Assembly: GCF_000243255.1 (NCBI RefSeq)
Contig: NZ_CM001436.1
Location: forward strand, 1,948,957-2,012,956
Direction: 5' to 3'
Origin: Methanoplanus limicola DSM 2279
GTDB lineage: Archaea > Halobacteriota > Methanomicrobia > Methanomicrobiales > Methanomicrobiaceae
Length of the DNA: 64,000 nucleotides
The translations under genes were made by a program, and so were the position numbers. The first letter of the stretch is position 1. Every line of letters starts with the position of its first letter. Positions 12,667 through 54,365 of this stretch are shown here, one piece after another. The notes beneath the pieces were generated by a model. That model did no database searches and was not told the origin of the DNA. It worked only from the letters and a program-made list of their open reading frames with translations.

Positions 12667-15513
12667 TTACTCATCTTCAAATTCTGCGGATATGAAACCA
12701 AGGGTATTACAGTTCTCCCTGACTGCTCTCTGGAGTTTTTCATCAAAGCCTTTGCCGTCACTGGTCTCAATCTCTATCTTTATCCTGACATCTGCATCAG
12801 GGCGGGTTGTAAAGTGCTGAATTACCTCATCCACAATCTGCCCGAAGTCAAGTTTGGCTTTTACAGGGTCAAGATCACAGCAGGCATAGAAGCGTTTTTT
12901 ATTCCCGGAAGTTGCTGTTCCGGTTGGGCCGGTTGCAGTCTGACCACCGTGAACTGGGGGAGTTACGGACTTACCTCCCCCTCCCCCGGTTATACCTCCG
13001 GTGCTACCGGGGCCTGTAGGTATTTCAGGAGGTTTAGGCACTTCAGGTGGTTTTATGCTCTCTTCATACGCTGCTGCGGCATCCGGCTCTATCAGCAGCA
13101 GGGACTTGTCAATGATTATACCTGACCTGTATGTCCCAAAGGAGAAGTCGAGATACTTATCTCCGTCCTTTCCTGCCGAAATTCCAAAGAAATCTCTTTT
13201 GTCTGCTCCGGATTCAACTGCCTTTTTCAGGACATCTTTATTCTGAAGACGTGGCATGTAAAGATAGCGGCATGTGTTTTCAAAGAGTTCACCGGCACTG
13301 TATTCGGATCTGTCGTCATCCCAAAACCACCTCTTCAGGAGGTTTGACAGGTGCACCGGTGCCCATACAGGGATTAATGCCTCATTTTCAGTGAGAACAC
13401 GCTCAATCTCCTCTATGGGTTTTTCCGCACCGGGATTTAAGGTGAAATTTTCCCACGTTATCTGTGTGTCAACCCTGCCGCCGGATATCTCCTGGAGAGG
13501 GGCAAGGATGTGGCGGTATGTCTCCCTGATGCTTCTCTTCACCGTCCTCTTTGACTGCTCAAGGCTCTCCCTTGCATTCTCTGCCATCAGGTTGTCAAGG
13601 GTAATTCTCCGGTTGCTGTAATCCGAGATTATCGAATCCCATGCAAGCATTGACCTGACATGGTCATATAGTCCGGTTACATTGCCAGAATCTGCGGCAA
13701 GGAAGATCAGCCGGTTCTGGTTATAACGTGGCTGATCGCCGCGTTTTTTAAGATATTCACCTGCACAGGAGGTGGCAATTCCTATATCATTTCTGCCATA
13801 TGTTGCGTTTGGGGGAAGGGCGATTAACCTGAGGGATGTGTCATCCGGAATATCACTTCCGGGGGTGAAGATGTGCACTCCGTCAAAATGCCCTCTTTTT
13901 ATGACCTTTACGAGTTCTTCCCTGATGGCGGGGATGACATCCTCTTTCTCATCATATCTCTTCTTTCTCTCCTCCATCTCACGCCTGAGATTGGGGCGTA
14001 TGTCAAACCAGTACCTGTTATCTGCTGAGTTGAGGTAGTACAGCCGGTCTGAAAGCCTGTGCAGGGCATCACGGTAGATGCTTATCTGCTGTCCGGGCTG
14101 AACACTGCCAAGGAGTATGCCTCCTTCTTCTATGCCCTGGACCATCTTATTCGGAGTTCCGGGTGCACTGCCGAGGAATATTGTTCTTGCCACACGCCGG
14201 CATGCCTGAAGACTGCCAAAGCGTGTATCTCTGTTCTCTATTTCCGTTGTTTCTGCCCCGTCTCCGTCAATGTCACGCTCAAGGACGGGGTCCCATCCCT
14301 GCGGGAGGTAATAGATGGCTTCGTTTCTTGTGCCGCCGTCATAGAGCGGAAGTCCGGCGGGCATTATCATTAAGTCATTGCTGCCGTCATTCCAGAGGCG
14401 GTGTATGACCTTTGCCATGAGCTTTAGGACTCCGCGTGTTCTCTGGAAGTTGTCAAGTGAGGACCAGTCTTCATACAGGCGGTCAAATATCTCCGGGTGG
14501 ATGGGATAGGCGTTTATGAGTCTGCTGTAGTAACGGCTCTCCTGGGTCTCTGCCGGAAATTCCGCTCCGGAATTTATGTACATGTCGGCAAATGACCGGC
14601 AGACATCCTCAACAGCTTTTGTATCTGTTATCTCTGAGAAGAGGCGCCTTCTTACGATCTCAAAGGCCTCTTCTGCTGCAACAGGTTTCCAGAGTGCCTG
14701 AATACGGGCGAAGTAGTGTTCAAGCGTCTGAAGGGCTTCAACTCCTCTTCTGCTCCCGGCTTCCTGTTCAGATTCCGGCAGTGAGGCTAAGAGGATGGCA
14801 TTTGGCACTGCTCTAATCCCCTCTGTAAGGGCCTGTATAAACGATATGTTAGAATCAAATGTACCCCCTGTAAGCTTCTGATCTTCGCTGAACTGCCTTA
14901 TGTATCCAACAAGCTCATCCATCAGGATTACACAGGGAGAATATGTTTTAAGAAGCTCAGACAAATTATCTGCTCCGGGTGATGTCCCGGATTCGTCTGC
15001 CTCTCTTATCTTTTCATAGGCTTCTTCTCCGCCAAGCTGCCAGGCAAGGCTGCCCCACATGGTGTTTATGGCTGTGCTGCCGTGTTTTTCCGGCATGTTT
15101 GGTGAGAGTCTTGTTCCGTCAATTACTGCAACTCTTGCCTTTGGAAGGTCTATTATTCCGGCTGAGTCAAGGATGGGTGGTATTCCCTGAAGTTCTGCTG
15201 TTGAAACTGTCCCCTTTACCAGGTGATAGACTGCAAGCATGGTATGCGTTTTTCCGCCGCCAAATGCAGTCTGTAACTGAATTACAGGGTCCCCTCCTTC
15301 TCCGGATATTCTTTTGATTACGGAGTCCAGAAGGAGCCTCATGCCTTCTGTGATGAATGTCCGTCTGTAGAAGAGGACGGGGTTGCCGTACTCTTCACTT
15401 GCAGTTCCGTTGTGCACACGCGATAAGTCAGCCGCAAACTCTGCCTGCTGAAATGTTCCCTTAAGGACGTCTTCATGCGGAACTGCAACCTCACGCCACG
15501 GTTTTAATGCCAT
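12667..15513 (-). CDS. DUF499 (COG1483) AAA+ ATPase
   Basis: 948 residues. N-terminal DUF499-type ATPase: Walker A in [18 protein letters not shown] (about residues 82-99), Walker B in [14 protein letters not shown] (about 195-208). It ends with a Pro/Gly/Thr-rich linker (about 825-870) and a small C-terminal beta domain (from [18 protein letters not shown]). Known genomic partners of this family are DUF1156 methyltransferases and Swi2/Snf2 helicases, exactly as here, in predicted anti-phage restriction modules. It is the last gene of the operon, 124 bases after the DUF1156 gene with a 37-residue frame in the gap. It probably drives ATP-dependent remodelling for the modification/restriction complex. 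Confidence 0.9.
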
Positions 15514-15514
15514 T

Positions 15515-15628
15515 TTACTGATAATCCCCTTTCTGGATCATATCGCTGAACTTTTCAGTCTGGACCTGTTTATCTGTTATTTTCCGGAGTTTTACATTGA
15601 TATTTATCATATTGCTGTGATCTTTCAT
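15515..15628 (-). CDS. Small protein (37 aa) between DUF1156 and DUF499 genes
   Basis: ATG at 15626-15628 preceded by GAGGGG about 5 nt upstream, a strong ribosome site. The product [20 protein letters not shown] is followed by 17 more residues, and its stop TAA (15515-15517) sits 2 bases before the start codon of the DUF499 gene, so it is placed to couple translation to that gene. Basic, no hydrophobic segment. It could be a genuine small subunit or a coupling leader peptide. Confidence 0.6.
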
Positions 15629-15637
15629 ATTATCCCC

Positions 15638-18520
15638 TCAAAATGAATCAAGATTTTTCTGCGGAGTTTTGCTGACCGCTTCAGGTGTTCTTGCTTCCAC
15701 TTCGCCCCATGATGTGATCAGTTCATTGTAGGGCCGGGCATCCTCTGCCCATCCTTTCCTCTCACAGAGGGTGTAAAGTCTGTATGCAAGCTGTTTTATC
15801 GACAGTGCCCGACCGGACATCCGGCTGAGAAGATCAGCCGCTCCTGCTTCTCCGCCCCCGCACTGGTGCACCCGGATTAGGTGATGCAGTGCCTCCCATA
15901 CCGGGGTTCTGCTGTCTTTTTCCGGTGACCAGTCATCCGGATATTCAGACCATCTGTACAGCCTGACTTTGCCGCTGCCGGATTCAATGACTCCTGCCTC
16001 TTTTACGCCGTCAACACTCGTTCCTTTTGCACGGGCAAGACCGTCCGCCTCGCCGAATCTCCCTTCCTTCCATGAATTTTCATCAAACCAGGCAAGACAG
16101 AAGCGTGTGTCTGCATCAAAGTCGTCCCCTGCCTCTGAGAAGTATTCGTCCAGCTCACGGTTTATCAGGACAAGTGCATCATGCACAGTCATCTTGGTCC
16201 CGTCTGCCTCAAGCACAGCAGAATATTTTGAGAAGACAGCCATGCCCGGCCCGATTGATGCCTGTGCCAGGTCAACCGGCGCAATGGACGATGCAGTCAT
16301 CTCATCCAGTGCCTCAGGAAGCTCACGCTTAAGCTCTTTCAAAAACTCCTTTCTCGACACGACATCAGCATCATCCCCCCTCTTCCGGCAGACGAGCACG
16401 ATGGAGGAGGCAAGGGCGTTTGTATTCATAGCAACTGAACGCTCTGTTCTTTCAGTATGCATAGGCCACGTACCTTTAATTGCAAAACCAGATTTAATCA
16501 CAGCCTCAAGAAATGTTTCCCAGCCGCTTGATGATGTATTACCTTCTTTTGTCTCGGACTGCTTAAATGCGTAATAAATAGTTACCGGAAAGAGGGGATT
16601 TGCCTGCTCTGCAAGTCTATGCATTGCTTTATTCATACCTTCCATAAAAAATTCTTCAGCATCCCCTTTTGAACCATGACTATAAGAGGCAGCCACAAGC
16701 TCCTCAGATTTAGGAGTATTCACAGTGATCAATGTGACTGGCAATATAAATCTTAAAAAAGTCCTCAACCACACATAAAAGAAATCCGAAAGATCAGCAT
16801 AACCTATATTGTCATAATATGGAGGATCGGTCGAAATAATTTTATTACTACTTAAATCTTGAATCATTGCATTTTTTTGAGTAGAATAACCCAAATTAAA
16901 GGCAGATAAACTTTTGTTAAGATTTATTTGAGATTCAATTATTGAATACCAGGATGCTATAGGTCCAAAAGGATTACTTTCAGCATAGTCCCATACCATA
17001 GGTATTGCCTGTCGAGCAAACAAAGCACGGAAATTTTGATTTACATTATTCCAACTAACTAAACTATTTGTGAGATCTGTCCATCTAGACAATGATAATG
17101 CTAAATATATACAAATTGAGTCGGCATAAGCAGCAGCACCCGTTCCTCCGTCTTCAAGGCCCGTTTTGTCATCAGGCATTCCGGCGGCGATGGCATCATT
17201 AAGTGCTTTCTCCCTTGCTTCTTTAACCAGATCGGAGAAGGTTGTCAGGGCTGTAAGCTGGCGGGGTGTGAAAATATCTGAAAAATTGGGAAGCCCATAT
17301 AGTGGAGGAGAAAACCAGCGGTGATCATTGGTCATGGGCTTATTGGCTTCCGGAACATCCGGCTTTTTTATATCCGGAACTTCAAATAAATCAGAGGATA
17401 GATAAACACGGCCCTTTTTTCCTTTGGCAACAATAGCTAAAGGAATTGACTCAAGACCATCTTTCTTTGAGATTTCCCTCAGCTCTGCCTTTTTTATAAA
17501 TGTACCACAGAACAGGCATCTGGCTCCCTTTGCATCGGTGGTATTTTCCGGAACATCTCCTTTTGATTCAACTCTAAATCTTTTTACTGCCGGAATATTT
17601 TTGTCAATCTCCGGAATAACATGGACTTCTTTTCCTTTTTTCTTAGAGAGATGAAATGACCTTAAAAGTGGTGCTCTACCCCCACAGGCAGGATTAGGAC
17701 ATTTGACAGTCCGTGCCCAGAGCCATGCGATGACGGTCAGTTCTTCCCCTGCATATTGTTTGAGATCAGGGCGGTCCTCTGCCATCTCCTCTGTGATCCT
17801 GACTTTTGGGTAGAGATGCCCGATCTTCTTCTCTGCTTCATCCCTCATCCACTGGCCATAATAGCGGACATCTTCGGCAAGACCTGCTGCACCTTTCCAC
17901 TCGGAATCATCCACACGGATCTGTTCTTTGCTCTCAGGGTTTACGGGAGGATTTCCGGCAAACTTCGGCGGGATCTCAATCATCGCCTTATTTATCAGCA
18001 CAGCAACCGGATTTAAATCAGATGCCCATGCCTCAAGCCCAAGCCTCTGGGCCTCAAGAGGAATAGCACCACCACCGGCAAAGGGGTCATGAAATGCCGG
18101 AAGTTTCTCCGGATTAAAAAGCTCTTTTGCCTGAGGGTGCTTCTTATTCAGCTCGCAGGTCTCCCTCCAGCTCTTCATGATCTCGGCCCTGGCTTCGGCT
18201 AAGACCTGCTCATTATTGGTATTCTCCCACAGGACAAGCTTCTTAATAATCTCAAAGAGCCTCTTTCTCTCCGCTTCAGCCTTCTCTTTGTTAACTCCAC
18301 GTCCAAGTTCACGCTCATAACCGGGATCGTTTACCAGTTGTGCAAAAAGTACTGCTCTTACAGCAGCAATTCTCCTCCGTGCCCACCATATATGTAATGA
18401 TCTTGGGTGCCTCGGAGTGAATGGATTGCCCTCTTTTTTGCAAGCTGCATTGATCTCGTCCAGCGGAAGTGCGACCTCAATCAGTTTTTTTGGGGCTTTT
18501 ATCTCCGGAACTTTGGCCAT
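15638..18520 (-). CDS. DUF1156 (COG1743) adenine-specific DNA methyltransferase
   Basis: 960 residues. N-terminal DUF1156 segment [18 protein letters not shown] and [20 protein letters not shown] (residues 12-65). SAM-binding motif [19 protein letters not shown] near residue 145. Two zinc-ribbon-like Cys pairs (CPNPACGG and CLFCGTF). Catalytic [17 protein letters not shown] near residue 575, the DPPY type that marks N6-adenine or N4-cytosine methylases. It likely marks host DNA, while the ATPase and helicase act on unmarked DNA. The start overlaps the stop of the HicB gene by 1 nt. Length is normal for the family. Confidence 0.92.
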
Positions 18521-18729
18521 TATGCCTCATCTCCGTCAAAACCGAAACTTGGATCAGGAACAGAAAGACCGTCCTCTTTTAGTCCCTCAATATGAAAGAC
18601 CAGTGCTTCCCGCATATTACTCTCTGCTTCAGCAGGTGTTCTTCCGGTTGAAACACATCCCAAAACGTCCGGAGAATATGCAGAATAGTTCGTGCCCGCT
18701 TCTTCAATAACTATCAAAAAATTATCCAT
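18520..18729 (-). CDS. HicB-like protein inside the methyltransferase operon
   Basis: 69 residues: [20 protein letters not shown], then [20 protein letters not shown], the compact HicB-like fold without a separate DNA-binding tail. A GAGG lies directly before ATG. The stop codon overlaps the methyltransferase start (TAATG), so it is part of that operon. No HicA partner is nearby. Its first 43 codons and leader are duplicated at 19326 as the front half of the chimeric gene. Confidence 0.85.
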
Positions 18730-18801
18730 TTCCTCAATCCCATCTTATTTTATAATTTATATTTTCTATTGACTATCTGCTTTTTGTTATCACTCAGGGA
18801 A

Positions 18802-19326
18802 TCATATATTCGGTCCGGAAGTTTCAGCCTTATCAAGAAGGGACTGCAAATCAAGATTGACACTTGTAACAGCCCATCCCGGTTCACCGTCAAAAGGCTC
18901 TCTGACATAGAAAGGACCTTCAAAGGAATCGCCGTTAACAATCACAACCGCAAGAATGAACTTATCAGACTGATTAAGACCATACATAATCTCATTTCTT
19001 GAAACCGTAATCGTAGTCTGCCCCTTTGCCCGTCCCTTAACCTCAATATGTCTGGTCATCGAAGGCCCGCCATCCGGAGAAGGTAAAACAGACGTAACAT
19101 CCCATCCGCACTTCTCAGCCGAAACATCGGTAACAATATGCCCGAAAGACTCCTCAGCGTCCATCACTGCCTTCATGGCAACCGCCTTAATATGTGCCAG
19201 TGCCTCACGTATATTACTCTCTGCTTCAGCAGGTGTTCTTCCGGTTGAAACACATCCCAAAACGTCCGGAGAATATGCAGAATAGTTCGTGCCCGCTTCT
19301 TCAATTACTATCAAATAATTATCCAT
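18802..19326 (-). CDS. HicB-DUF3883 chimera created by tandem duplication
   Basis: 174 residues. Residues 1-43 are nearly identical to the HicB protein at 18729 (ending at REAL), and from [16 protein letters not shown] onward the protein is nearly identical to the last 130 residues of the helicase that ends at 19400: [30 protein letters not shown] and [11 protein letters not shown], the DUF3883 domain. The leader before ATG also duplicates the one at 18730 but with GAGG changed to GAGA. The duplication period is 597 bases (199 codons). The frame has stayed open and only a few residues differ, so a fused protein may be made. Sequence relations are seen; any activity is unknown. Confidence 0.85.
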
Positions 19327-19399
19327 TTTCTCAATCCTATCTTATTTTAGATTTTATATTTTTTCATTGATTATCTGCTTTTTGTTATCACTCAGGGAA

Positions 19400-22300
19400 T
19401 CATATATTCGGCCCGGGAGTTTCAGCCTTCTCAAGAAGGGACTGCAAATCAAGGTTAACACTTGTAACAGCCCATCCGGGTTCGCTGTCAAAAGGCTCTC
19501 TTATGTAAAAAGGACCTTCAAAGGAATCGCCGTCAACAATCACAACCGCAAGAATGAACTTATCAGACTGATTAAGACCATACATAATCTCATTTCTTGA
19601 AACCGTAATCGTAGTCTGCCCCTTTGCCCGTCCCTTAACCTCAATATGCCTCGTTACCGGAGCAATGTGTCCGCCTTCGCTGTCCCGACCGGCCCTGCTA
19701 TCACTGCCACAAACACAACCCTGCGGCACAACAGACGTAACATCCCATCCGCACTTCTCAGCCGAAACATCGGTCACGAAATGCCCGAAAGCCTCCTCAG
19801 CGTCCATCACTGCCTTCATGGCAACCGCCTCAATATGTGCCCGTGCCAGAGCGTCCACTCCCGGACTCTGCGACTCACCCTTCCTCTTAGCCAAAAGCCC
19901 TGCCGGAATAACAACCGCACCTCCGGCAATAACCGGCGTAGCAGAGATGACATGCCTCATAGCCGAGAGTTCACGCCTCCTCCTCTCAAGCCTTGCACTA
20001 AGGTCATCAATCGTCTTCTTAAAATTATCAATATTCAGCCTGACATCCTTACCGGCCTTTCTGTCCTCCTGAAGCCTTATCACACGGTCAGACCAGTAAT
20101 TGATCTCCTTAACAAGTCTCTCCTGCACCTCAGAAAGAGTCCGATCAGCCATCTCCTCACGCCTTAACCTGACCTCATCAAAATGGCCCGGCACAAGGTT
20201 CTCCGTCGCATAACCAAGCGCCATCTGCTCAAGACCGTTATTAATCCACGGAGAAGACAAAACATCCTGCACGAGGCTGGATTCCTCACCGGAAATCGGC
20301 TCAAGGTCCAGATGCGGCGCCCAGCCGGCATTCTCCGCCCCGCCATCAGCATCAATCTTAACAAAATTCATCCGCCGTGAAACCGTCCGGCTGCCATCAT
20401 TGCCATCCCTGACCGAATGATCAATAATAAAGAGCACCTTCGGCTCATCAGATAAGTCATTCGGGTCAACAAAGACCGTCCCCTGCCGGAGTTTTGTCCG
20501 GTGGGCTTCAAGAACAAGATCAGTTACAGACTGCATAAGCGGATGGCCCGGATGAAGAAGACTTGCCATAGGTGCTCCGACACGGTCCAAAAGCCTGACA
20601 TAATCCTTCTCAAAGCAGACACGCTCATATTTGTTCATCACCGGAGCAGTGTACCGGCGGTCACGCCCGGAGATCTGCCGATCCCTCTCCTTAATAACAG
20701 CCGGGACATGGGTAATCTCCCACCTCCCCTTCTCACGCTGCCGCAGTTCTCCCTTAAACTCAGCAAAAGCCCGCGTGAAAAAAGCCCGTATGAAATAAGG
20801 CTGAAGCTTCCTCGCCTCAGCCTTTTCCATCTCTTCCTTAAGCGCATAAAGCTGCTCCTCATCCATAACCTCCTCACAGAGGGCGTTGGCCCGCATAATC
20901 TCGCGTAGATGCTCAGTATCAAGTGCACCCTCCACCTTACGAAGAAGCCTTGCCCGGACCTCCGGATCATCACCATAGCGGATGGCCTCAATAAGAAGGT
21001 CCTTTAAACTCCGCTCATCAAAGACATCGCCGAGAATATCAAAGACCCGTCCGCCAAGCGCCTGCCGCTCAGTCTCAAGCTTACTTAACAGCTTCTGGAA
21101 TACATCACCCTCCCTCGTCTCAGACGCGATTAGATTCCAGAGATGGCAGACCTCAGTCTGGCCGATACGGTGAATTCTGCCAAACCGCTGCTCCAGCCGG
21201 TTGGGATTCCACGGAAGGTCATAATTGACCATCAGGTGGGCATTCTGAAGGTTCACACCCTCACCGGCAGCATCTGTTGCAACCATCACCCGCACGTCCG
21301 GATCATTCCTGAAACGCTCCTGCTTCTTCCTCCTCTCCTCACGCCTGTCGCTTCCGTCAATAGTTACAACAGCATCAGCAGAGCCAAGCAGGTCACGAAT
21401 TCTTGCGGCAAGATAACGGAGGGTGTCTTTGTACTCCGTAAATATGATGAGCTTCCTCTGCCTGCCGCTCTCTTCATGCATCTCAGGTGTCTCCTGAAGA
21501 AGCCTTGACAACTCCTCCCACTTACGGTCATTTCCGGAGATTACCACCTGCCTTGCCTGATCTTCAAGCCTCTTTAAAATCCTGATCTCGGCCTCAAGCT
21601 CATTGACTGTCCCTGACGCAGTCGCCTTATCTACGATCTTCTCCTCATAATCCTCATACTCCCCGTAAGACATCTCATCCTCGGCTTCCCAGGGGTCCTC
21701 TTCCGGAGCGACAAGATATGAAAAAGTCTCTGCGACCTGATAGCCTCTCCTCTCAATCTTAACCTTCTCAACCTCACTTTTAAGCTTCTCATGGCGGCGT
21801 TTAAGGGACTGAAAGATCGCCTCCGGACTTGAGGCAAGGCGGCGCTGAAGACCAGTCAGGGCAAAACCTACATTGCCCTTCCTCTGATTATCCCCAATAT
21901 TCTCCGCCTTGTTCATCTCCTCGCGGACATAACGGGTGACAGAGGCATACAGGGCTGCTTCGGCATCTGAGAGAGTATAATTGACTGAATAAGCCCTTCT
22001 TTCCGGAAACAAAGGCCTGCCGTCAAACTTCAGGAGGTCTTCTTTTACCATCCGGCGCATTATGTCAGTTACATCAACCTTGTGTGCCCCGTCCCTGAAC
22101 TTACCATAAAACCGGTCTGAATCAAGGAGAGATAAAAAGAGCTGGAATTCTTCTTCCTTGCCGTTATGGGGAGTTGCAGTCATCAGAAGAAGATGACGGG
22201 TATTTTTACCCAGGATCTGCCCAAGCTTAAACCTCCCTGTCGGCTTAAATTCCCGGCCGTAATAATGGGCAGACATCTTATGTGCCTCATCCACCACCAC

Positions 22301-22978
22301 AAGGTCCCACTGTGAACGGTCAAGCTTCTCCTTATATTCATCATTTCTTGACAACTGGTCCAGCCTGGCGATCATCAGGTTATGGTCATCAAAGGCATTG
22401 CCGCTCTGCGACTGCTCATAAATTTCCCCTGAAAATATCGTAAAGGAAAGCCCGAACTTCTCATTCATCTCATCCTGCCACTGCTCGACCAGACTTCCGG
22501 GTGCGACAATCAAAATCCTCTCGGCGTCTGCTCTCATCAGCAGTTCACGGATTAAAAGTCCGGCCATAATCGTTTTGCCGGCACCCGGATCATCGGCAAG
22601 GACATAACGCAGGGGCTGTTTTGGGAGCATTGATTCGTACACTGCCGTTATCTGATGGGGCAGAGGCTCAACATTAGAGGTATGCACCGCCATCATCGGG
22701 TCAAACAGATATGCCAGATTGATACGGTACGCCTCAGCAGCAAGCTTAAACTCCTCTCCTGGAGCATCAAACGCCCAGGGCCTTCCGGTCTTCGCAAGTG
22801 AAAGTGAGGATTCATTTGACCTGAAAAGCATCTGCTCTTTTAAACTGCCGTCAGAACCTTTGTAGTAAACAGTGACAGCATTCTCACCCACAGGTTCGGT
22901 TGCAACAATACTGACATTCTGCTCCGGTTCAATCCCCGATACAACAGCGTCCTTCTTTAGATCTTCAAGTTTTAACAT
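19400..22978 (-). CDS. SNF2/HepA-type DEAD helicase with C-terminal DUF3883 domain
   Basis: 1192 residues. Helicase motifs: [20 protein letters not shown] (Walker A, about 120-139), [11 protein letters not shown] (Walker B, about 228-238), [13 protein letters not shown] (motif III), then [17 protein letters not shown] and [20 protein letters not shown] (motifs V-VI). The last 150 residues form a DUF3883 domain with [15 protein letters not shown], in which the E-V-K resembles the core of PD-(D/E)xK nucleases. Together with the DUF1156 methylase and DUF499 ATPase it makes a predicted restriction-like module and probably translocates on DNA. First gene of the operon; the C-terminal 130 residues have been duplicated downstream. 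Confidence 0.93.
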
Positions 22979-23134: not shown

Positions 23135-24226
23135 AATAGGACTTACGCACTACCCCCTCAAAAAAAATTTCGCGCACGATTTTTCATGAAATCTGTGATG
23201 CCCAGTCTTACAATTTCCCAATTGGCATCATAAGGTGTCTGACCATTTTCCAGGAAATTAACCTCAAAACGAACATATGCTCTCAAAGAACAATTAATAT
23301 GATTTCTTTGGCCAATTCCCTTTCTTAATTTGCATTTTTCGACATTGCAAACTTCCTTTATGACTCTGTGGCAGTTCTCAATGTTCCAGCATATATCTTC
23401 CAGATTTTGCAGACCATAATTATCCATCGTAAGGAAATTTGTGGCCCAATAGCATCTATTTCCAGCCTTATTTAGTGATACGAAGATTTTAACAAAACCA
23501 TAAGCTTTGAGATGTACTTCACGACCATCCTGATCGCCCAGATGAAGGTCCATTGATTGTAAATCTGTTTTATTATCCTTCTCAGGACTGACAGATCTAT
23601 TTCTCTTAAGTCTTGAAAACCAGTTTAATCCAAGATTTCGGATAAATTTGAGGTTTGCAACACTCGAATACCAACTGTCAAATAATACAAAATATGGTCT
23701 GAATCCTTTGTTATATGCTTCTTGAAGCATATCCCAGAAATGATCATTTTTTGTTTTTCCGTCATTATCAATATCATATATTCTGTAATTTATTGGGAAA
23801 GTATGCTCTCCATCGGTCCATATCAATGATATCAGGCCAATTCCTCTAACTACTGTCCTATGTTTGCCACTCCATTGAAAATATGTGCCTTCCATTTTTT
23901 TGAATGAATTTTATCGATTACAGTGTCATCCGCCACTAACCAGCCTGATTTTAGATCAACAAAAGGTTTTACTTCATTCCATAAGGCCTCTGTGCTTAGA
24001 GGCTCTCTTAAAAGAAATCTGTTGACTGCATCATGTGAAATGTTAAAGCTGTCAGTTGGAAAACAATCTGCACCTCTGATACAAGATAATTCACACTGAG
24101 CTCCCATAAGAAAGCTGATGTAGTCTACCTCAGTGTATTTAGGCTTAGGTGGCATTCTGATAAGCAATATTGTACGCATTATATAAAGATCTTTCGATTT
24201 AAAAAACGTTCTGCGTAACTCCTATT
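23135..24226 (-). mobile_element. IS701-like insertion sequence, about 1.09 kb
   Basis: Imperfect terminal inverted repeats AATAGGACTTACGCAC (23135-23150) and AATAGGAGTTACGCAG (reverse complement of 24211-24226) match at 14 of 16 positions and bracket the transposase. No target duplication is apparent. The right end supplies the stop codon of the DUF1016 fragment, showing insertion at the end of that gene. Confidence 0.75.
23158..24179 (-). pseudogene. IS701-family transposase, split by a -1 frameshift at A7
   Basis: Two overlapping frames (24179-23850 and 23895-23158) join to a DDE transposase of the IS701 type. The first contains GWLVADDTVIDKIHSKK with the first catalytic Asp region; the second contains QWSGKHRTVVRGIGLISLIW, PYFVLFDSWYSS and WNIENCHRVIKEVC with the later catalytic residues. 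The natural start is probably at MPPKPKYTEVDY (24155). The switch falls in TCA AAA AAA TGG, where one extra A would restore a single frame of about 340 residues. It is either a decayed gene, a homopolymer sequencing error or a frameshift product; decay is the default. Confidence 0.85.
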
Positions 24227-24577: not shown

Positions 24578-24943
24578 TTAACCGGTTCCGGAAGTTATGA
24601 TTGTATTATCTCCGGATGTTATGGAGTGTATAGCATCGCTCTGGTGTTTGTAAAGTTTTACAGGCTTTGATTCTTTATCTTCGGGATTTTTGGTGAAATA
24701 AAGGGATGTGTCCTTATGGAGTAGTTTATCATGGGTTAGTTTATCAAATGAATCACCAAGAGCATACCTGCGTGCAAGCTCAATGTATGACCCTTTGGAT
24801 AAAAGTGTGCCATTGTTTATTCTGCTGTCAACCCATTCTTTTATGACGGGGTTTTTGAATTTCTGAAAGGAACTTACGAAAGTGCGTCATGCTTCTTTTA
24901 TCTTGCCAAGTGCTGAAACCGGATCAAATGATGGTTCTGTCAT
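24578..24943 (-). pseudogene. N-terminal fragment of a DEAD-box helicase, with an internal stop
   Basis: From ATG 24941-24943 the frame reads MTEPSFDPVSALGKIKEA, an in-frame TGA, then WVDSRINNGTLLSKGSYIEL and finally VKLYKHQSDAIHSITSGD and NTIITSGTG before a stop. The last part is the Q-motif-like and Walker A region of a COG1205-type DEAD helicase, cut exactly within Walker A (G-K-T lost). All parts are in one frame. It is a dead remnant of a larger helicase, perhaps from another defence operon. Confidence 0.75.
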
Positions 24944-25028: not shown

Positions 25029-25154
25029 TTATTTGCCTTTTTTTGCGGCAGTTGACATCGAACGGGATTTAAAAGCCTGGTTTTTTCCACTGCGATCTGC
25101 TGCTGCCTGAATACGGGATGCTGCTTTTGGGGTCATAGATGTTTTTTTAGACAT
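25029..25154 (-). CDS. Small basic SMP/LEA-like protein, 41 aa
   Basis: ATG at 25152-25154 with GGAGG about 7 nt upstream, a strong ribosome site. The product MSKKTSMTPKAASRIQAAAD continues with SGKNQAFKSRSMSTAAKKGK. The M-T-P-x-A-A-S-R-I-Q motif is like seed-maturation-protein-type small proteins found in methanogens, thought to be stress or desiccation related. Likely a real gene missed by length cut-offs. Function is inference. Confidence 0.7.
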   Translation of the reverse strand: MSKKTSMTPKAASRIQAAADRSGKNQAFKSRSMSTAAKKGK

Positions 25155-25235
25155 TTTTTTAACCTCCGATAGGTTTACAATAACAAAGAGGATATGAAAA
25201 AATATATGCCTTTTTTGAAACTGTTTCCGGATTAA

Positions 25236-26039
25236 TCAACTGTTGCTTTTCTCTTCTTCTGAATTTAATATTGCAAGGGCAAATATTCCATCACTGGTTA
25301 TACGATATTCTTTTTCTCTCTTATTTCCGGGGCGAGATCGCTCTTCTATAAGACCCCATTCTTCCAGTTGGGATTTGATTTTGGATATGGTTCCCTTATT
25401 GGGAGATTTTTTTATTTTTTCCTCACCATTTAGACGGGCAGGTCTGTATTTTACAGTCAGGATTCTTGAAAAGTCTTTTCCGGGGACCCACAGTGCTTCA
25501 TCTTCCTCATGAGACTTTTCATTTTTCCTTGCAAGGATTTTTAATGCGTTTATGTAATTGATATTCTGCCGGATTTCGGTAAGATGCATTTTAGGGATCG
25601 CAATTTTTTCGATTCCTCCACCTCTTGGAGTCAGATAAATATCTCCATTCAGCCATAATGCCATTACAAAAAGTGATAATGAAAGCATTTTGGTACCGCC
25701 GCTGAGGTTGAATGAAATCCTTGAATAATCAGTTTTGTTGAGGTTTAACAGAACAGAATCCCTAATATAGGTGAGAGAAGTATTTTTAACCCGTATTTCT
25801 CTGAATTTGACAAAATTTTCCCTGCACTTTACCTCCATTGATTTTATTGACTGTTGAATCAATATTTTGGTTTTTCTGCGTTCTTTCTTCTCTTCAGAAT
25901 CATTTTCGTTTTCAGGTTCATTTTCATAAACTCCTTCTTCAACAAAAACCCAGGCTTCATTAATTCCTTTGAGGTTGCTAAATACAACAGGGAACGTATT
26001 ATGGATGCTTTGTCCGGCACTCATTATCAGCAGATGCAT
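25236..26039 (-). CDS. CARF-domain winged-helix regulator (Csa3-like)
   Basis: 267 residues. The N-terminal half is a Rossmann-like CARF domain: MHLLIMSAGQSI at the start and RISFNLSGGTKMLSLSLFVM at about 108-127, where N-L-S-G-G-T-K is the ligand-binding motif. Residues about 205-257 form a winged helix (TISKIKSQLEEWGLIEERSR and EYRITSDGIFALAIL). CARF domains bind cyclic oligoadenylates or similar nucleotides, usually in type III CRISPR systems; Csa3-type proteins are transcription regulators. No cas gene or CRISPR array is in the window. It is divergently transcribed from the viperin gene with only 99 bases between the starts, so viperin is its probable target. Confidence 0.85.
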   Translation of the reverse strand: MHLLIMSAGQSIHNTFPVVFSNLKGINEAWVFVEEGVYENEPENENDSEEKKERRKTKILIQQSIKSMEVKCRENFVKFREIRVKNTSLTYIRDSVLLNLNKTDYSRISFNLSGGTKMLSLSLFVMALWLNGDIYLTPRGGGIEKIAIPKMHLTEIRQNINYINALKILARKNEKSHEEDEALWVPGKDFSRILTVKYRPARLNGEEKIKKSPNKGTISKIKSQLEEWGLIEERSRPGNKREKEYRITSDGIFALAILNSEEEKSNS

Positions 26040-26138
26040 TTTGATCAGATTGTGATTAGTTCTTTTCAGATAAATTGTTTCTTATTTGGGAAACTGTTTC
26101 TGAGAACACAGATATAAAATTCCGTTTAAGTTGTATAT
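26040..26138. promoter_or_regulatory. Shared divergent promoter of CARF regulator and viperin
   Basis: A TATA box TATAAAA lies at 26113-26119, about 23 bases before the viperin ATG at 26139, and there is no Shine-Dalgarno, so viperin is probably transcribed without a leader. Any operator for the CARF-winged-helix protein would have to lie in these 99 bases. I see no perfect dyad. Confidence 0.5.
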
Positions 26139-26972
26139 ATGTCGAAGACAGCATCTATCCGTTCTGTAAACTGGCACCTGATCTCAGCATGCAACTATTC
26201 CTGCAAATTCTGTTTTGCAAGGAACCTTGGGGAAAAGCCTGTACCATATTCAGAAGGTCTAGAAATTTTAAAGAGACTGCATGAAGCCGGTATGGAAAAG
26301 ATAAATTTTGCAGGGGGTGAACCACTGTTACATCCTCACATTTTTGACTATTGTCATGAAGCACATGATCTTGGAATGGTTGTTTCTGTTACAACAAACG
26401 GTTCAAAACTGACTGAAAAACTGGTACATGAGAACAGGAGGCATATCGACTGGATTGGCCTGTCTGTTGATTCGGCATGTGAGGATACTGAAATTCTGCT
26501 TGGGAGGGGAAGAGGCGGACATGTCGGGCACTGCACTGAAATATCTGATGCAATTAGAGAAGCTGAGATCAGACTGAAGATCAATACAACAGTTACTGCA
26601 CTAAGTTGGATGGAAAACATGGGGAATTTCATCAGACGGGTAAATCCGGACAGATGGAAGGTATTTCAGATGCTTCATATTAAAGGAGAAAATGATGATG
26701 CAGTTCCATGGCTTTCCATAACGGATTCACAGTTTGATTATTTTAAGAACAACCACAAAAAGGTGATTCTTAAAAACAGCACGGGACCGGTTTTTGAATT
26801 CGCTGATATGATGGAGAGTTCATATTTTATGCTCACACCAGGAGGAAAGGTCAAGACCGACACCGGTAGGGTTATAACCAAATTCCAGCTTGAGGCCGTT
26901 TTACATAGGGGAGTTTCAAATTACGTTTTCGAGGACCAATATTTTGGAAGGGGTGGCGTTTATGCCTGGTAA
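26139..26972 (+). CDS. Prokaryotic viperin, radical SAM enzyme
   Basis: 277 residues. The start SVNWHLISACNYSCKFCFAR holds the CxxxCxxC 4Fe-4S cluster motif (C18, C22, C25) with the N-x-H prefix typical of viperins. INFAGGEPLLHPHIF and GLSVDSACEDTEILLGRGRG match the later substrate and SAM-binding motifs, and the C-terminal YFGRGGVY closes the protein. Viperins convert CTP (or UTP/GTP) to 3'-deoxy-3',4'-didehydro nucleotides that terminate viral RNA chains; archaeal viperins with antiviral activity are known. No nucleotide kinase, a frequent partner, lies beside it. Instead its divergent neighbour is a CARF regulator. Confidence 0.93.
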   Translation: MSKTASIRSVNWHLISACNYSCKFCFARNLGEKPVPYSEGLEILKRLHEAGMEKINFAGGEPLLHPHIFDYCHEAHDLGMVVSVTTNGSKLTEKLVHENRRHIDWIGLSVDSACEDTEILLGRGRGGHVGHCTEISDAIREAEIRLKINTTVTALSWMENMGNFIRRVNPDRWKVFQMLHIKGENDDAVPWLSITDSQFDYFKNNHKKVILKNSTGPVFEFADMMESSYFMLTPGGKVKTDTGRVITKFQLEAVLHRGVSNYVFEDQYFGRGGVYAW

Positions 26973-26982
26973 AACAGGCAAT

Positions 26983-28188
26983 TTATTCCTCTTTAAGCTT
27001 AAACTTTGAGCATCTGCACCATTCATCAAACAGGTAATTTAGTTTTAAGGCCTGACCTTCATCATTAATCATTATTCCGGTATTGAATCCATAGTCTATT
27101 CCGGCATTTTCAAAATTTGAAGTCATGATAAATGCTTTAAGTTTCCCGTTATTTTTAGAGATAACTCCCTTTGCATGGAAAAAGGGTATGCCATAAATTT
27201 CTGCACCGGAATTTAGTAAAGTCCTAAGTCCGGGTTTGATTTTACTTTTTGAGTTTGTTATGATTTTTACTGGTCTTTCTTTTTTAAGATGGAGGAGAAT
27301 CTCTTTGACAGAGTCATTACGAGCATCAAAATTCCATGCAAATACCTTTAATTCGCCATCAGATTCCTGAATGAATTTTATGAGCTGATCTTTTAACTTA
27401 AAACTTTCATATTCTCCTGCTTCTTTTTGATTTTGATTTTTTATTGTCGTATAAATTCCCGCTTTTGAAGATTTTAGCTTAGGCAATTCTATTGGAAGAT
27501 TTTTTGGTGGGTTTGCAAGATCACCAAGTCCGTCACTTCTTATTTCTCCGGTTGCAAGAATATAAAAACCAATTAGAAACTGATGAAATATTACATCTAT
27601 CTGATTACCAGTTAATTTAACTGCGATATCGGGACTCTTGTACACAGCACCGGTAAGATTGCAGGTCATAACATAGCCTTTCCTATTCTTCCGGTTCTTT
27701 GGATCAATAAGTATGCATTTTAAGTGAAACTCTTTTGAAGAGCGGATCAATACTTTACCCTGCATCTCCTTAAGAAATCGAATGTGGTTTTCAAGACTCC
27801 TTATATCCTTTTCACTGAGTATGTCTTTATCAAGGTAATTTTCAGATGCTGTAAGAAAGTATATTCTTACATTTCTCTGATAGGCCTCAATTAATGCATC
27901 CTGAATTTTTTTATTCCCAATAACAAAGGAGGAAATACAGATAAATTCCTGAGCAGAACCAATTATATTAATGAGTTCCTGAATTAGAAGTCCGGGTTCT
28001 GACTGTTTAAAATCCTCTTTTTTTAATTCAGAGTCTTCCTCATCCTTCTGTTTTGGTATTAGAACAAGATTTGAGATTTTCTCAGGAATATCAGACATTT
28101 TACCTGATTTTTCCCTTTTTTGCCAAAAAACTCTTTTGGAATTTACCTTTTTATTTTCTGAATTCTTCTTTCCTTTCGTATTCTTCAT
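26983..28188 (-). CDS. Phospholipase D-superfamily nuclease, third gene of helicase operon
   Basis: 401 residues. A long basic and charged N-terminus (1-60) precedes two PLD repeats. The first has HLKCILID (H155, K157, D162) followed by a C-N-L-T-G stretch; the second has HAKGVIS (H338, K340) then TSNFENAG. The usual Asp in the second HKD motif is replaced by Ser344. Such proteins are nucleases. The start overlaps the stop of the 380-residue gene by 4 nt. With the SF1 helicase upstream it resembles the Mokosh defence theme, in which a COG1112 helicase is combined with PLD. Confidence 0.85.
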   Translation of the reverse strand: MKNTKGKKNSENKKVNSKRVFWQKREKSGKMSDIPEKISNLVLIPKQKDEEDSELKKEDFKQSEPGLLIQELINIIGSAQEFICISSFVIGNKKIQDALIEAYQRNVRIYFLTASENYLDKDILSEKDIRSLENHIRFLKEMQGKVLIRSSKEFHLKCILIDPKNRKNRKGYVMTCNLTGAVYKSPDIAVKLTGNQIDVIFHQFLIGFYILATGEIRSDGLGDLANPPKNLPIELPKLKSSKAGIYTTIKNQNQKEAGEYESFKLKDQLIKFIQESDGELKVFAWNFDARNDSVKEILLHLKKERPVKIITNSKSKIKPGLRTLLNSGAEIYGIPFFHAKGVISKNNGKLKAFIMTSNFENAGIDYGFNTGIMINDEGQALKLNYLFDEWCRCSKFKLKEE

Positions 28189-29327
28189 ATTATATTCTCC
28201 ATTGAAAGATCAATTGGGGCCTGCAAATACCAGAATTTTCTGCTGAACAATCCATCTTTTCCATGAACTGATTCTATAAGTTCTTTCCTGTCAGGAATCC
28301 TGATTTGAGAATAAAACTCATCGTATTCTTCAAACAGGGATTTATTTTTTAATTTTACTAAGTCCAGCCCCTCTTCGGAGATATAATCATGAATGTCCTG
28401 TTCAATGTTGAAAATGTACCATCTCTGAGCATCATCAAGAGATTTTGGAATTAATCTGCAGTTCAGGTACTCAATATTTATAGGAGAATCTCCAAAAAAT
28501 TCGTTCAATTTCATATTTTTAAAGAATATATTCCCGTTAAATTTGTTTAAATCTCTAATATTATCATTTACCGGGAATGAAGTCTTAATTCCGTTCAATC
28601 TGTCATCCCAGCCAAAGACATCAGGATAAATTTCCTTTAATTTTTGATTTAGGGTTATGCAGTTAATATTGCCCCTTTCCCATTTGCAATTATCATTATC
28701 TGAAAAATATTCGGTTAAATTTGAATTTCCATCAATATAACCACTTATTTTGGTTTCCCTTTTTGATTCCAGGATGATACAGTTATTATTTATTTCAAAG
28801 ATTTTCCCGTTTTCGTATATGGTGCGGTATTCATTAATATCTCTTTTTTTCCTTGCTACTTCAAATTTACAACCTTCTATTGAAGAACTAATATTTTCAG
28901 GAAGTGTGGTTAATTCCGGTTCTCCGTTTATCCTGTTGTCAGAGTGAGATACAGGTTCGCATTCTAGTATTTTTACAGGAATATCCGGTTCATCAGGTAA
29001 AACAATGTGATAGATGTCTCTTTTCAATTCATAGTACTTCTCATTTTCAGCACATTGTAATCCGTTATCTGTCAGAATTGCAGTTTCGCCCGGTATTTCC
29101 CACTCAAAAATGTGATTTTTGATGCAGTAGTTTAGAACTGATTCAGGAACTGCGGGAGGACATGGACCAAGAAATTTACTTTTTATTACATCTGATGATA
29201 TTCTGTTGTTGTTTTCCTTTGCAAGTTTTGCATAGGCAATAACATCACCTCTGTTCTTCTCCCATCCAATTTCCATTTCTATATAGTATTCAAGAAGATT
29301 GCATTTTCTCTCAGTGAGTATTTTCAT
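28185..29327 (-). CDS. Unknown protein, middle gene of helicase-PLD operon
   Basis: 380 residues without a domain I can name. The N-terminal 110 residues are helical with a winged-helix-like pattern (ILTDNGLQCAENEKYYEL), and the C-terminal part is mixed, rich in Asp/Asn/Lys. The gene overlaps both neighbours by 4 nt (ATGA-type junctions at 28185-28188 and 29324-29327), so it must belong to the same unit as the helicase and PLD nuclease. A role in target recognition or regulation is possible, with no direct evidence. Confidence 0.75.
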   Translation of the reverse strand: MKILTERKCNLLEYYIEMEIGWEKNRGDVIAYAKLAKENNNRISSDVIKSKFLGPCPPAVPESVLNYCIKNHIFEWEIPGETAILTDNGLQCAENEKYYELKRDIYHIVLPDEPDIPVKILECEPVSHSDNRINGEPELTTLPENISSSIEGCKFEVARKKRDINEYRTIYENGKIFEINNNCIILESKRETKISGYIDGNSNLTEYFSDNDNCKWERGNINCITLNQKLKEIYPDVFGWDDRLNGIKTSFPVNDNIRDLNKFNGNIFFKNMKLNEFFGDSPINIEYLNCRLIPKSLDDAQRWYIFNIEQDIHDYISEEGLDLVKLKNKSLFEEYDEFYSQIRIPDRKELIESVHGKDGLFSRKFWYLQAPIDLSMENII

Positions 29328-31987
29328 TTTTTCTTCTCCGGAAATTTCATATAATATGGTCCTGTTGCAACATCTTTAAGGATAGAAGAGTCTTCCTGAC
29401 TTTTGAAATACTTTCTAAAACCAAACAAAATCATATAATGGCGTGCACGGGTAAGGGCAACGTTCAGCCTGTTTAAGCTATCGAGGAAACCTATTCTGTC
29501 TGTGTTTACTATGGAGAGAAGGACTATATCTGCCTCATGGCCCTGAAAACCATCCACGGTATTGATTGTGACGGTTATTCTTTCGTCATCAGGGAAAAAA
29601 ACTGAATTTCCTGATACATTAAACTTATTTTTAAATAATCTGACCAGTAGTTCCTTTTGGTTCTGATAAAAAGTCAGAACTGCAATATTCCATGGTTTAT
29701 CCTGAATTAAACCAGGCGATTCCTTTAATTCGGTTATAATGTCTGTGAGGTGTGAAATCAGAATTTCCGCTTCAGTTTCATTGACATTATTCTTTTTCTC
29801 ACCGGCAGAACTTATTGGAGTATATGGATATGTTACCCACACTGCACGGTTATTATACTTGATTAAGTTTAATTCTCTTTCCCGGATATCTGAAATTGTT
29901 TTAGTACTTTTGAGGCATTCAAGACCTTGCCGGTTGTAAATATTTTCCCTTGAATATTTAATTATGTCATCATGAGACCTGTGCTGGAATTCAAGGACAT
30001 AGTATCTCTTCTCAAGGTCTTTTTCTGTAAGTCCCCCGGTTATACAATTATTTCCCGGTGATTTATCTCCATGATAACCGCTTGTAATCAACTCAATGAT
30101 GGATGGTAACGGAATAAATTCAATGTTTCTTATTTCGTCTAAAAGTATATTTTTAAATCCCGGTTCAAATTCTGGCAGAAGGTTTCTGATCTCACGACTG
30201 TACCTTTTTTTAGTACCATATGAATTACCGTCACCCTTTTTAAAATACCTGAGTTCAAATTTTCGTTCAGTTCTCCATGCAAGGGCAACTTCCAGATTTT
30301 TCTCGAAAGAATATTCTCTGTTCTTAAATTTCTTTTTGAAATTATTCTCTGCTTTTTTAGTTATAGTTTCATCAATGTCTTTACCGGAAGCGTAGATTAT
30401 CTCTGAAAGAATTCTTTTGGAGATTGCGTCCGTTTTGCAGTTACATGATAAGTAAACGACCGGCTTACTGCTCCTGATATTATTATGATTATTATCAAGG
30501 TCAATTATCTGAATACCTGTTGATTCTGCCTGATGTCTGTAATAATCTCTGACTTTCGGATCCTCTTCTGAGATTAGAACAGGTGCTTTATACCTGCTGC
30601 ATATGGAAATGTCTGTACAGACTTTTTCTATTGTTTCATAATCAGGACTTGGTTCTGATTTTTTAATTTCTTCTATAATGGATGCTTTAATATTTGCACC
30701 AAGTTCCTTCTCATTAACAAATGGGGGTAATTGCAGAGGGTCACCCACAATAACCCATTTCTTTGCAAATAATGCAGGGACAAGCCATTCCTGAAATGTT
30801 GCACGGCTTGCTTCATCAATTATTAATAGGTCATATGCAGGCTCAATATTCTCCTTCATGTTTTTAATTGAAGGGTGGTGGAGAATACCCATTGTCGTTC
30901 CACAGATGAGATTCGCAGAATTAAGGATAATTTCGGTTGCGATATCATTGTTTGTTTTAACTGCTGATAGGAAATATTCCTGCGATTCTGAAATCTGATC
31001 CGGATATTCAGTTTCGATATAGTCGATAATTCTCTTGCGTTCAGTATCCCTTCTTTTGTCTATGTGGTAGTCTTTAAGCCTCTCATCCACTTTTATTTCT
31101 CTTGCACTTATTCTTACAGCAGTTATTTCTTCCCTGTCAGCAATTTTTGCAAGTACGTTATCAACTGCAGTATGAGTTGGTGCACAGAGTAGTATCTTCT
31201 TACCTCTTTTTGCAGCCTGAAGTATAAGTTCACATATTGATTCCGTCTTTCCTGAACCCGGAGGGCCATTAAGAATGCAGAAGTCCGGAGAATTAAGAGC
31301 ACTGTTTACAAATTTTTTCTGAATTTGTGTTCCGTATTTATCATTGCAGGCAAAGGCATCACTGTCAAGAATTTCCCAATCAGTGACAGGATTATATTCT
31401 ATTGGGAATTCATCAAGAACTGTTTCTATGCCAGATTTCGGCTGAAATAATTTTATTATAGGAAGGTATTCATCCCTGCAGTTGTTTGCCAGTGCCCTTA
31501 TTGCTTCAATCTGTTTTTCTATTACATACAATTGTGGTGGAAGGATAATTTTTTCAGAAGAGGGTCTTTGTGAAAGAAGCAAACGGTCTTCTTTGTAATC
31601 AATATCTAATATGCTAATATATTTTGAAAAAGAAGTATTTGCATACTTTTCTCTTCCGGGGTCAATTACTCTGTCAGAGTCAAAGAAACCGGACTTTATC
31701 TTTTGGAAATTGGCTGCACTGAGATTTTTTCCTGATTTGAGAGTAACCCAACAGTTTGTATTTTCTTTTTTTTCTGCTCCCCCATCTCCTGTTTTTTCAT
31801 GTTCTGCCTCACAGAAAAGGTATGAAGGATTCTTTTTTTGGTATTCACGTGCTTTTAAAAGATATTTCTCATAGATGTTGAGAAATTTTGAGGTGTGTTT
31901 TATGTACAGATCATAATTTTCAGAATTCTCACCATTGTCCGGTTTCTGAAAATGAGGTGCAATTTTGCCCCTGTCACCTAAAATCAT
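29324..31987 (-). CDS. SF1 (UPF1/DNA2-like, COG1112) helicase
   Basis: 887 residues. An N-terminal extension of about 235 residues, then Walker A CILNGPPGSGKTESICELIL, motif Ic APTHTAVDNVLAK, Walker B LLIIDEASRATFQEW, VIVGDPLQLPPFV, and C-terminal motifs TVDGFQGHEADIVLLS and LNVALTRARHYMILFG: the full UPF1/DNA2 set. No kinase or nuclease domain is fused to it. First gene of a three-gene overlapping operon with an unknown protein and a PLD nuclease. Together they look like a split, Mokosh-like defence system that senses RNA or RNA-DNA structures; the assignment is inference from gene content. Confidence 0.9.
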   Translation of the reverse strand: MILGDRGKIAPHFQKPDNGENSENYDLYIKHTSKFLNIYEKYLLKAREYQKKNPSYLFCEAEHEKTGDGGAEKKENTNCWVTLKSGKNLSAANFQKIKSGFFDSDRVIDPGREKYANTSFSKYISILDIDYKEDRLLLSQRPSSEKIILPPQLYVIEKQIEAIRALANNCRDEYLPIIKLFQPKSGIETVLDEFPIEYNPVTDWEILDSDAFACNDKYGTQIQKKFVNSALNSPDFCILNGPPGSGKTESICELILQAAKRGKKILLCAPTHTAVDNVLAKIADREEITAVRISAREIKVDERLKDYHIDKRRDTERKRIIDYIETEYPDQISESQEYFLSAVKTNNDIATEIILNSANLICGTTMGILHHPSIKNMKENIEPAYDLLIIDEASRATFQEWLVPALFAKKWVIVGDPLQLPPFVNEKELGANIKASIIEEIKKSEPSPDYETIEKVCTDISICSRYKAPVLISEEDPKVRDYYRHQAESTGIQIIDLDNNHNNIRSSKPVVYLSCNCKTDAISKRILSEIIYASGKDIDETITKKAENNFKKKFKNREYSFEKNLEVALAWRTERKFELRYFKKGDGNSYGTKKRYSREIRNLLPEFEPGFKNILLDEIRNIEFIPLPSIIELITSGYHGDKSPGNNCITGGLTEKDLEKRYYVLEFQHRSHDDIIKYSRENIYNRQGLECLKSTKTISDIRERELNLIKYNNRAVWVTYPYTPISSAGEKKNNVNETEAEILISHLTDIITELKESPGLIQDKPWNIAVLTFYQNQKELLVRLFKNKFNVSGNSVFFPDDERITVTINTVDGFQGHEADIVLLSIVNTDRIGFLDSLNRLNVALTRARHYMILFGFRKYFKSQEDSSILKDVATGPYYMKFPEKKK

Positions 31988-42954: not shown

Positions 42955-43139
42955 ACAACTCCTGGAAGATGAAATTACGGGGAAAATACGGACTTCTGCC
43001 ATGACAAGTGGTGATAATTGTATCGGCTTCTCATAATTTTTGATGGGGACAACTTGTAGGCAGTATATAAAATCCTGTTGACAAAAAGAGAGATTTCAAG
43101 AATATTTTTGTGAATTCATTCATCAAATGAGAGCTTGAC

Positions 43140-43271
43140 CACTACTTGCTCACTACTTGCTCACTACTTGCTCACTACTTGCTCACTACTTGCTCACTAC
43201 TTGCTCACTACTTGCTCACTACTTGCTCACTACTTGCTCACTACTTGCTCACTACTTGCTCACTACTTGCA
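43140..43271. repeat. 11-bp tandem repeat, 12 units
   Basis: Unit CACTACTTGCT runs without interruption from 43140 to 43271; 11 units are perfect and the last ends TGCA. An 11-bp period is close to one turn of the helix, and being no multiple of three it gives repeated open frames on the plus strand that are artefacts. It lies 150 bases before the HEPN/MNT pair. The flanks 42961-43139 and 43272-43422 show nothing else. Confidence 0.95.
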
Positions 43272-43422
43272 TGGTAACCGTCAAATCACCCAATCTACTG
43301 CCCACGATAATTCAGATAAAAACAGAATTACCAAATACCACATCATCCTTATTGAATTCCGGCAAAAAATTAAAAAGCTTATTATGCCTCTGTACCAAAT
43401 CTGAAAACAGGAGAACAGTCAT

Positions 43423-54083: not shown

Positions 54084-54147
54084 CCAGTCAGAGTTTTAGC
54101 TGAAAGAACCGGTTTATAACTATACATTTCTCCGGAACTTAAGTTAT

Positions 54148-54345
54148 TAAAATATGTACATGATACACGAAATAAGTTGTAAAAATGTGTACACCATACA
54201 TAAAATAAGTTGTAAAAATGTGTACACCATACACAAAATAAGTTGTAAAAATGTGTACAACACACACAAAATATGTTGTAAAAATGTGTACACCACACAC
54301 AAAATAAGTTGTAAAAATGTGTACGGCATACACATAATATATACT
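54148..54345. repeat. Six 33-bp direct repeats before the DUF4143 ATPase gene
   Basis: Units begin at 54148, 54181, 54214, 54247, 54280 and 54313, with the core AAATGTGTACACCATACACA and AAAATAAGTTGT. Each unit holds a GTGTACAC-type palindrome. There is no spacer variation, so it is not a CRISPR array. The array ends 20 bases before the ATG. A decayed piece precedes the ATPase remnant at 4453, so repeats and gene travel together. It probably is an operator array. Confidence 0.93.
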
Positions 54346-54365
54346 TAAAGATACAAAAGTCAATT

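Follow-up and report, generated by a model that had tools for sequence, protein, structure and literature searches.

In the 64,000-nt stretch of the Methanoplanus limicola DSM 2279 chromosome analysed here (NZ_CM001436.1, positions 1,948,957 to 2,012,956; the whole stretch is called the window), a gene for a prokaryotic viperin lies divergent from a gene for a CARF protein with a winged helix. The CARF protein probably acts as a one-component regulator dedicated to an inducible viperin system, responding to a ligand and most likely activating transcription. This reading draws on the gene identities, the predicted fold of the regulator, the conserved pairing of the two genes, two conserved sites, their fixed geometry and a conserved small gene, all of which can be established from sequence. 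The features that carry the argument are the following.

26139..26972, + strand: prokaryotic viperin, 277 amino acids (aa), with an intact radical S-adenosylmethionine (radical-SAM) triad (NF038283; PDB viperins)
25236..26039, - strand: CARF and winged-helix regulator, Csa3-like, 267 aa (Pfam, PADLOC and fold matches)
26077..26100, no strand: predicted operator 1, GTTTC-N8-GAAAC-N-GTTTC, common to the divergent viperin and CARF promoters (window scan; cross-genus conservation)
25217..25227, no strand: predicted operator 2, GAAACTGTTTC, close behind the stop codon of the CARF gene and upstream of a small open reading frame (ORF) (repeat count in the window; 7 of 7 genomes)
25029..25154, - strand: conserved small-protein gene, 41 aa, with a GGAGG Shine-Dalgarno sequence (cross-genome conservation)

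Identity and pairing of the two genes

The original prediction read the genes at 25236-26039 (-, 267 aa) and 26139-26972 (+, 277 aa) as a CARF-winged-helix regulator and a viperin sharing a 99-bp intergenic region (26040-26138). The coordinates and the gap are correct, and both identities were borne out. As judged from its sequence, the product of 26139-26972 is a prokaryotic viperin (pVip): it scored 261.5 bits against NCBIfam NF038283 (curated cut-off 180), its closest PDB relatives are viperins (E 1e-40), and the cysteine motif C18xxxC22xxC25 with its NWH prefix is present (SVNWH). The C-terminal extension ends in RGGVYAW. This viperin is like other pVips in having all radical-SAM motifs and in passing the curated cut-off, and differs from them in its dedicated adjacent regulator. 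Animal viperin is induced by interferon. In the literature searched, no paper on the control of viperin in prokaryotes was found.

The CARF protein lies narrowly above the cut-off of Pfam CARF_Card1 (PF23400; 25.0 bits, cut-off 24.6) and strongly matched the PADLOC model PDLC02909, named 'Csa3', over residues 6-262 (309 bits, E 4.6e-93). The curated Csa3 cut-offs of TIGR01884 (20.6 vs 60.2 bits) and Csa3_N (PF22662; 14.5 vs 27) were not reached. A sequence search of the PDB returned weak matches to Card1 and MarR alone, and the identity was settled by fold. An AlphaFold2 model (mean predicted local distance difference test score, pLDDT, 90) compared with Foldseek had Saccharolobus Csa3 as its best target (2wte and 6wxq as the top two, and 6w11), including entries bound to cyclic tetra-adenylate (cA4), and after Csa3 it resembled Cdn1, Card1, Can2 and Cam1; Csm6 was also matched. 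The architecture is that of Csa3, a CARF domain with a winged helix, and the NLSGGTK motif named in the prediction is kept at residues 111-117. Motif I (SAGxxIxxT) and motif II (FNLSGGTK) are conserved among the viperin-linked CARF relatives; in the window protein FNLSGGTK, a phosphate-binding motif, resembles that of Card1. The cA4 binding motif 1 of Csa3, hydrophobic-G-F-N/D-x-polar-F (PMC8844856), is not conserved in this family, which has SAGxxIxxTF instead. A search of viral contigs for the CARF gene gave no match, and hence no sign that viruses carry it.

The survey covered 391 genomes of the phylum; the window's own genome, complete and 3.2 Mb in size, is designated G000. The CARF family was found in 36 genomes and viperin in 28, with 22 having both, 6 viperin alone, 14 CARF alone and 349 neither. 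The pairing, which would have meant little in a single genome, was found well beyond this one, since 22 of the 28 viperin genomes have a CARF gene 136-216 bp from viperin. This distance applies to 24 of the 53 CARF matches (22 divergent, 2 codirectional) and to 21 of the 22 that score above 200 bits. Named relatives from the CARF alignment search belong to Methanoculleus, Methanolobus, Methanosarcina, Methanocorpusculum and other Methanomicrobiales. Presence of CARF is clustered on the viperin tree, where it requires 6 changes, and copies of the viperin-CARF cassette occupy different chromosomal places. It is highly improbable that the two genes are merely co-located in a defence island, with the CARF gene controlling other targets. 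Defence genes do abound in the window (Hma, PDC-S13, PDC-S02), and weaker CARF homologues adjoin other genes, for example that of an H+-pyrophosphatase; but the narrow spacing in 22 genomes, the fixed operator position described below and the differing chromosomal sites of the cassettes argue against such a coincidence.

The CARF-only genomes mostly belong to one genus, with genes near the H+-pyrophosphatase gene and the motif FDISAGSK, and this group is perhaps a housekeeping offshoot. In genus g18 (L122-L129), CARF homologues with a helix-turn-helix (HTH) domain and this motif have no viperin and stand beside a membrane H+-pyrophosphatase; this part of the chromosome is conserved. The CARF-less viperins L058, L059, L060, L061, L150 and L152 have another conserved adjacent gene of about 560 aa (cluster 5, no family match), perhaps an alternative viperin partner. 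Two apparently bacterial carriers of the cassette, L166 (Bacteroidales) and L168 (Acholeplasmataceae), were set aside as mis-binned because they are 4-5 kb pieces of metagenome-assembled genomes whose promoter is nearly identical to that of Methanocorpusculum L147.

Predicted operators and a small-protein gene

The window has one match to the full pattern of operator 1, against 0.00 expected from shuffled sequence; the general footprint across loci is GTTTC-N8-GAAAC-N-RTTTC. When 17 viperin loci were lined up on the NWH codon of viperin, the 11-bp operator core started at -76 from that codon (-49 from the ATG) in 13, in both gene orders; the remaining 4 have a core with 1-2 changes or a one-base shift. 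In all 17 loci the viperin ATG is at -27 from the NWH codon, and 14 of them have a TATA-like AT at positions -27/-26 relative to the ATG, a spacing that fits a leaderless viperin transcript. Operator 1 stands next to the viperin TATA box on its upstream side, ending about 12 nt before the TATA region. The core is 0.89 identical among divergent members, the flanks 0.25-0.31. One group of loci has GTAAY-N-RTTAC at the operator position, including both codirectional cassettes, where no divergent gene constrains the layout, and four loci of family f8 have a different palindrome, AATAAATCTATTTATT, in the CARF-viperin gap. Perfect matches to the full pattern in G000, G029, G034 and G054 lie solely between CARF and viperin genes, and the dyad was not found upstream of the CARF-less viperins scanned. 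The earlier suggestion that the CARF protein regulates viperin is well supported by the pairing across several families, the conserved dyad at a fixed distance and the absence of that dyad before the CARF-less viperins scanned.

The two occurrences of GAAACNGTTTC in the window, where 0.09 are expected, flank the CARF gene. In scans of seven genomes with up to 2 mismatches allowed, a site was found just behind the CARF stop codon in all seven; the joint chance of these second sites is about 1e-25 from the background match density, a figure that ignores shared ancestry. Outside the cassettes the same whole-genome scans were near chance, and the extra matches opened in G000, G017 and G054 were mostly intragenic; the search for a wider regulon was set aside.

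Operator 2 is followed by an ORF of about 42 aa with a strong GGAGG signal (MSKKTSMTPKAASRIQAAADRSGKNQAFKSRSMSTAAKKGK in the window). A profile of this small protein matched 12 of the 22 cassette genomes, mostly within the cassette. Full operators of this type accompany the copy downstream of the TPR gene in the second cassette of G000 and a Methanocorpusculum copy between the viperin and TPR genes. The copy at G054:C1:2251087, distant from any cassette, has none. No Pfam family matched the small protein above cut-off, and two members resemble SMP below it. Outside the cassettes, G000 has three tandem copies of the gene for this SMP-like small protein (G000:C1:2175469-2175883). For the viperin system, the small protein adds a new candidate component.

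Proposed mechanism, mode of control and ligand

In the proposed mechanism, a CARF dimer would bind the intergenic dyad next to the TATA box of viperin as well as the second copy before the small-protein gene. During infection a nucleotide-type ligand would be produced and bind the dimer, altering the action of the winged helices and most likely switching transcription on, and viperin and the small protein (in relatives also the TPR protein and kinase) would be produced just when needed. We infer three things: the CARF protein is the factor that binds, its effect is activation and not repression, and its signal is a nucleotide, cyclic or other. With such a regulator, conserved and provided with an exact operator, viperin would have a nucleotide-gated switch of its own.

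Control in the opposite sense is rather unlikely. The CARF protein would then be a repressor and autorepressor, holding off viperin, the small gene and its own gene through the dyads until released by ligand. One operator common to a divergent regulator and its target is the classic repressor layout, Csa3b represses cas genes (PMC8844856), and in G054 the left half-site is near the annotated CARF start. The site, however, covers neither the TATA box nor the start of viperin but stops some 12 nt short of the TATA region, and several loci have a poor TATA box at viperin, which suits an activator.

Several observations weigh against activation by a nucleotide-sensing CARF protein. The compared promoters are homologous and hence not independent, though their flanks have drifted to chance identity, and operator type tracks regulator clade imperfectly, as at the G341 locus. 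The motif II lysine is lost (FNxTAGTALF) in the CARF sub-clade with GTAAC operators, which includes the second regulator of G000. Cas10 is absent from G000 and is not enriched among cassette genomes. Finally, Csa3a bound its own palindrome non-specifically in vitro, and this was not improved by cA4 (PMC8699464).

The original prediction proposed switching by a cyclic nucleotide and called for a search for its synthase. Switching of the CARF protein by a cyclic oligonucleotide is suggested by its fold and motif. The search, with the profiles for Cas10 palm (PF22335) and SMODS (PF18144), found neither in G000. A DisA-type cyclic di-AMP (c-di-AMP) synthase, an enzyme general in the group, was found in 22 of 22 cassette genomes. 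Cas10 occurs in 3 of the 22 cassette genomes vs 71 of the 391 overall, which indicates no link between Cas10 and the cassette, and SMODS gave one weak match among the 22. The synthase of the signal is probably not Cas10. Were the signal a cyclic oligoadenylate made by a type III CRISPR system at another genomic locus, viperin would be an ancillary CRISPR output. This reading agrees with the CARF fold, with a GGTK motif as in Card1 and with cA4 binding by Csa3 (PMC8844856, PMC8699464). It is nevertheless very unlikely given the Cas10 distribution and the single Cas1 of G000, which stands alone amid unrelated genes.

Within the preferred reading, the ligand may well be another nucleotide, a refinement held with slightly less than even confidence. 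Candidates include c-di-AMP, a viperin-derived 3'-deoxy-3',4'-didehydro (ddh) nucleotide acting by feedback, and the linear or mixed cyclic product of an unrecognised synthase. The top-scoring CARF members pair almost solely with viperin, DisA is present throughout the cassette genomes, canonical synthases are rare and the Csa3 cA4 motif 1 is not conserved. DisA, being general in the group, is unspecific evidence, and no particular molecule is indicated. If the preferred reading is true, CARF signalling would extend to genomes without Cas10, and one would have to ask what enzyme produces the signal there. A bolder and tentative extension is that methanogens possess a CRISPR-independent nucleotide alarm, with a messenger and synthase new to defence, in which the CARF factor would switch on a viperin regulon including the ~42-aa partner, whose gene has an operator even away from the regulator.

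Related systems and the surrounding cassette

Among known systems, the regulator is most like Csa3a and Csa3b of the Sulfolobales, which share its CARF domain, MarR-like winged helix and defence target and are the best fold match. The CAPPa palindrome, TCCCN8GGGA, lies 12 bp upstream of the B recognition element (BRE) and TATA box of Sulfolobales adaptation genes and has been assigned to the activator Csa3a (PMC8699464, PMC8844856). Operator 1 has the same N8 dyad layout and the same place relative to TATA. Unlike Csa3, the window regulator has viperin as its apparent target instead of cas genes, no CRISPR locus nearby, no conserved cA4 motif 1 and scores below the TIGR01884 and Csa3_N cut-offs. 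As originally stated, no cas gene was found among the window proteins scanned and no CRISPR array is visible in the window, where the direct repeats are tandem arrays and short two-copy repeats. MM_0565 of Methanosarcina mazei is a methanogen CARF-HTH activator that binds upstream of a cas1-solo operon (PMC7465815); it differs in that no distinct binding motif was found and viperin is unmentioned.

The PADLOC models for pVip (PDLC02903-5), TPR (PDLC02907), Csa3 (PDLC02909) and VakA (PDLC02911) strongly matched the window regulator, the viperin and the TPR protein and kinase of relatives. The viperin-related PDLC029xx models appear, from their numbering, to form one set, and since the regulator, TPR and kinase models are numbered next to pVip, the PADLOC curators had probably seen the association. 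It is undiscussed in the literature searched, and viperin papers beyond that search may treat the pairing; no account of the operator, small protein or fixed geometry was found in the same literature. Unlike the PADLOC viperin models, the window lacks the TPR protein and kinase, and the operators and small protein are not among the PADLOC models matched.

Downstream of viperin, relatives encode the TPR protein of about 980 aa; in family f8 a VakA-type kinase and often another viperin precede it. The TPR protein is absent from the window cassette. So is the nucleotide kinase, in line with the first reading of this DNA, yet VakA belongs to the cassette in the f8 relatives. Several relatives have a DEAD/MZB helicase of about 1790 aa behind the CARF gene. 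Here the helicase is cut to its first 18 codons and a transposase lies beyond, and the window viperin is therefore in a trimmed cassette. The second cassette of G000 (L057, G000:C1:390938-397131) has codirectional CARF, viperin and TPR genes plus the small-protein gene; its CARF motif is FNITAGTALF, its viperin operator is of the GTAAC type and its small gene has a GAAAY-type operator. The neighbouring features of the window are listed below.

24887..24943, - strand: relic of a DEAD/MZB helicase N-terminus (MTEPSFDPVSALGKIKEA), first 18 codons (compared with L002, L003, L045, L046 and L146)
23158-24179: transposase beyond the helicase relic
26983..28188, - strand: PLD-family protein, converging on viperin, possible associate (PLDc_2; homologue in G008 viperin-CARF loci)
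28185..29327, - strand: protein of unknown family in the same operon, possible associate (no family match)
29324..31987, - strand: SF1 (superfamily 1) helicase, MkoA-like, possible associate (homologues near viperin in G008 and G013)

In G008 (L055), homologues of the 26983-31987 genes lie directly downstream of viperin and of a second, HTH-less CARF gene. The window also encodes a complete Hma defence system, HmaA, HmaB and HmaC (12667-22978, -), together with an additional C-terminal fragment of HmaA (18802-19326), and the further defence genes PDC-S13 and PDC-S02. An array of the 11-bp repeat CTTGCTCACTA occupies 43134-43276, and iteron-like 33-bp tandem repeats (TAAGTTGTAAAAATGTGTACACCATACACAAAA) at 54107-54370 lie directly upstream of a 441-aa ORF at 54366.
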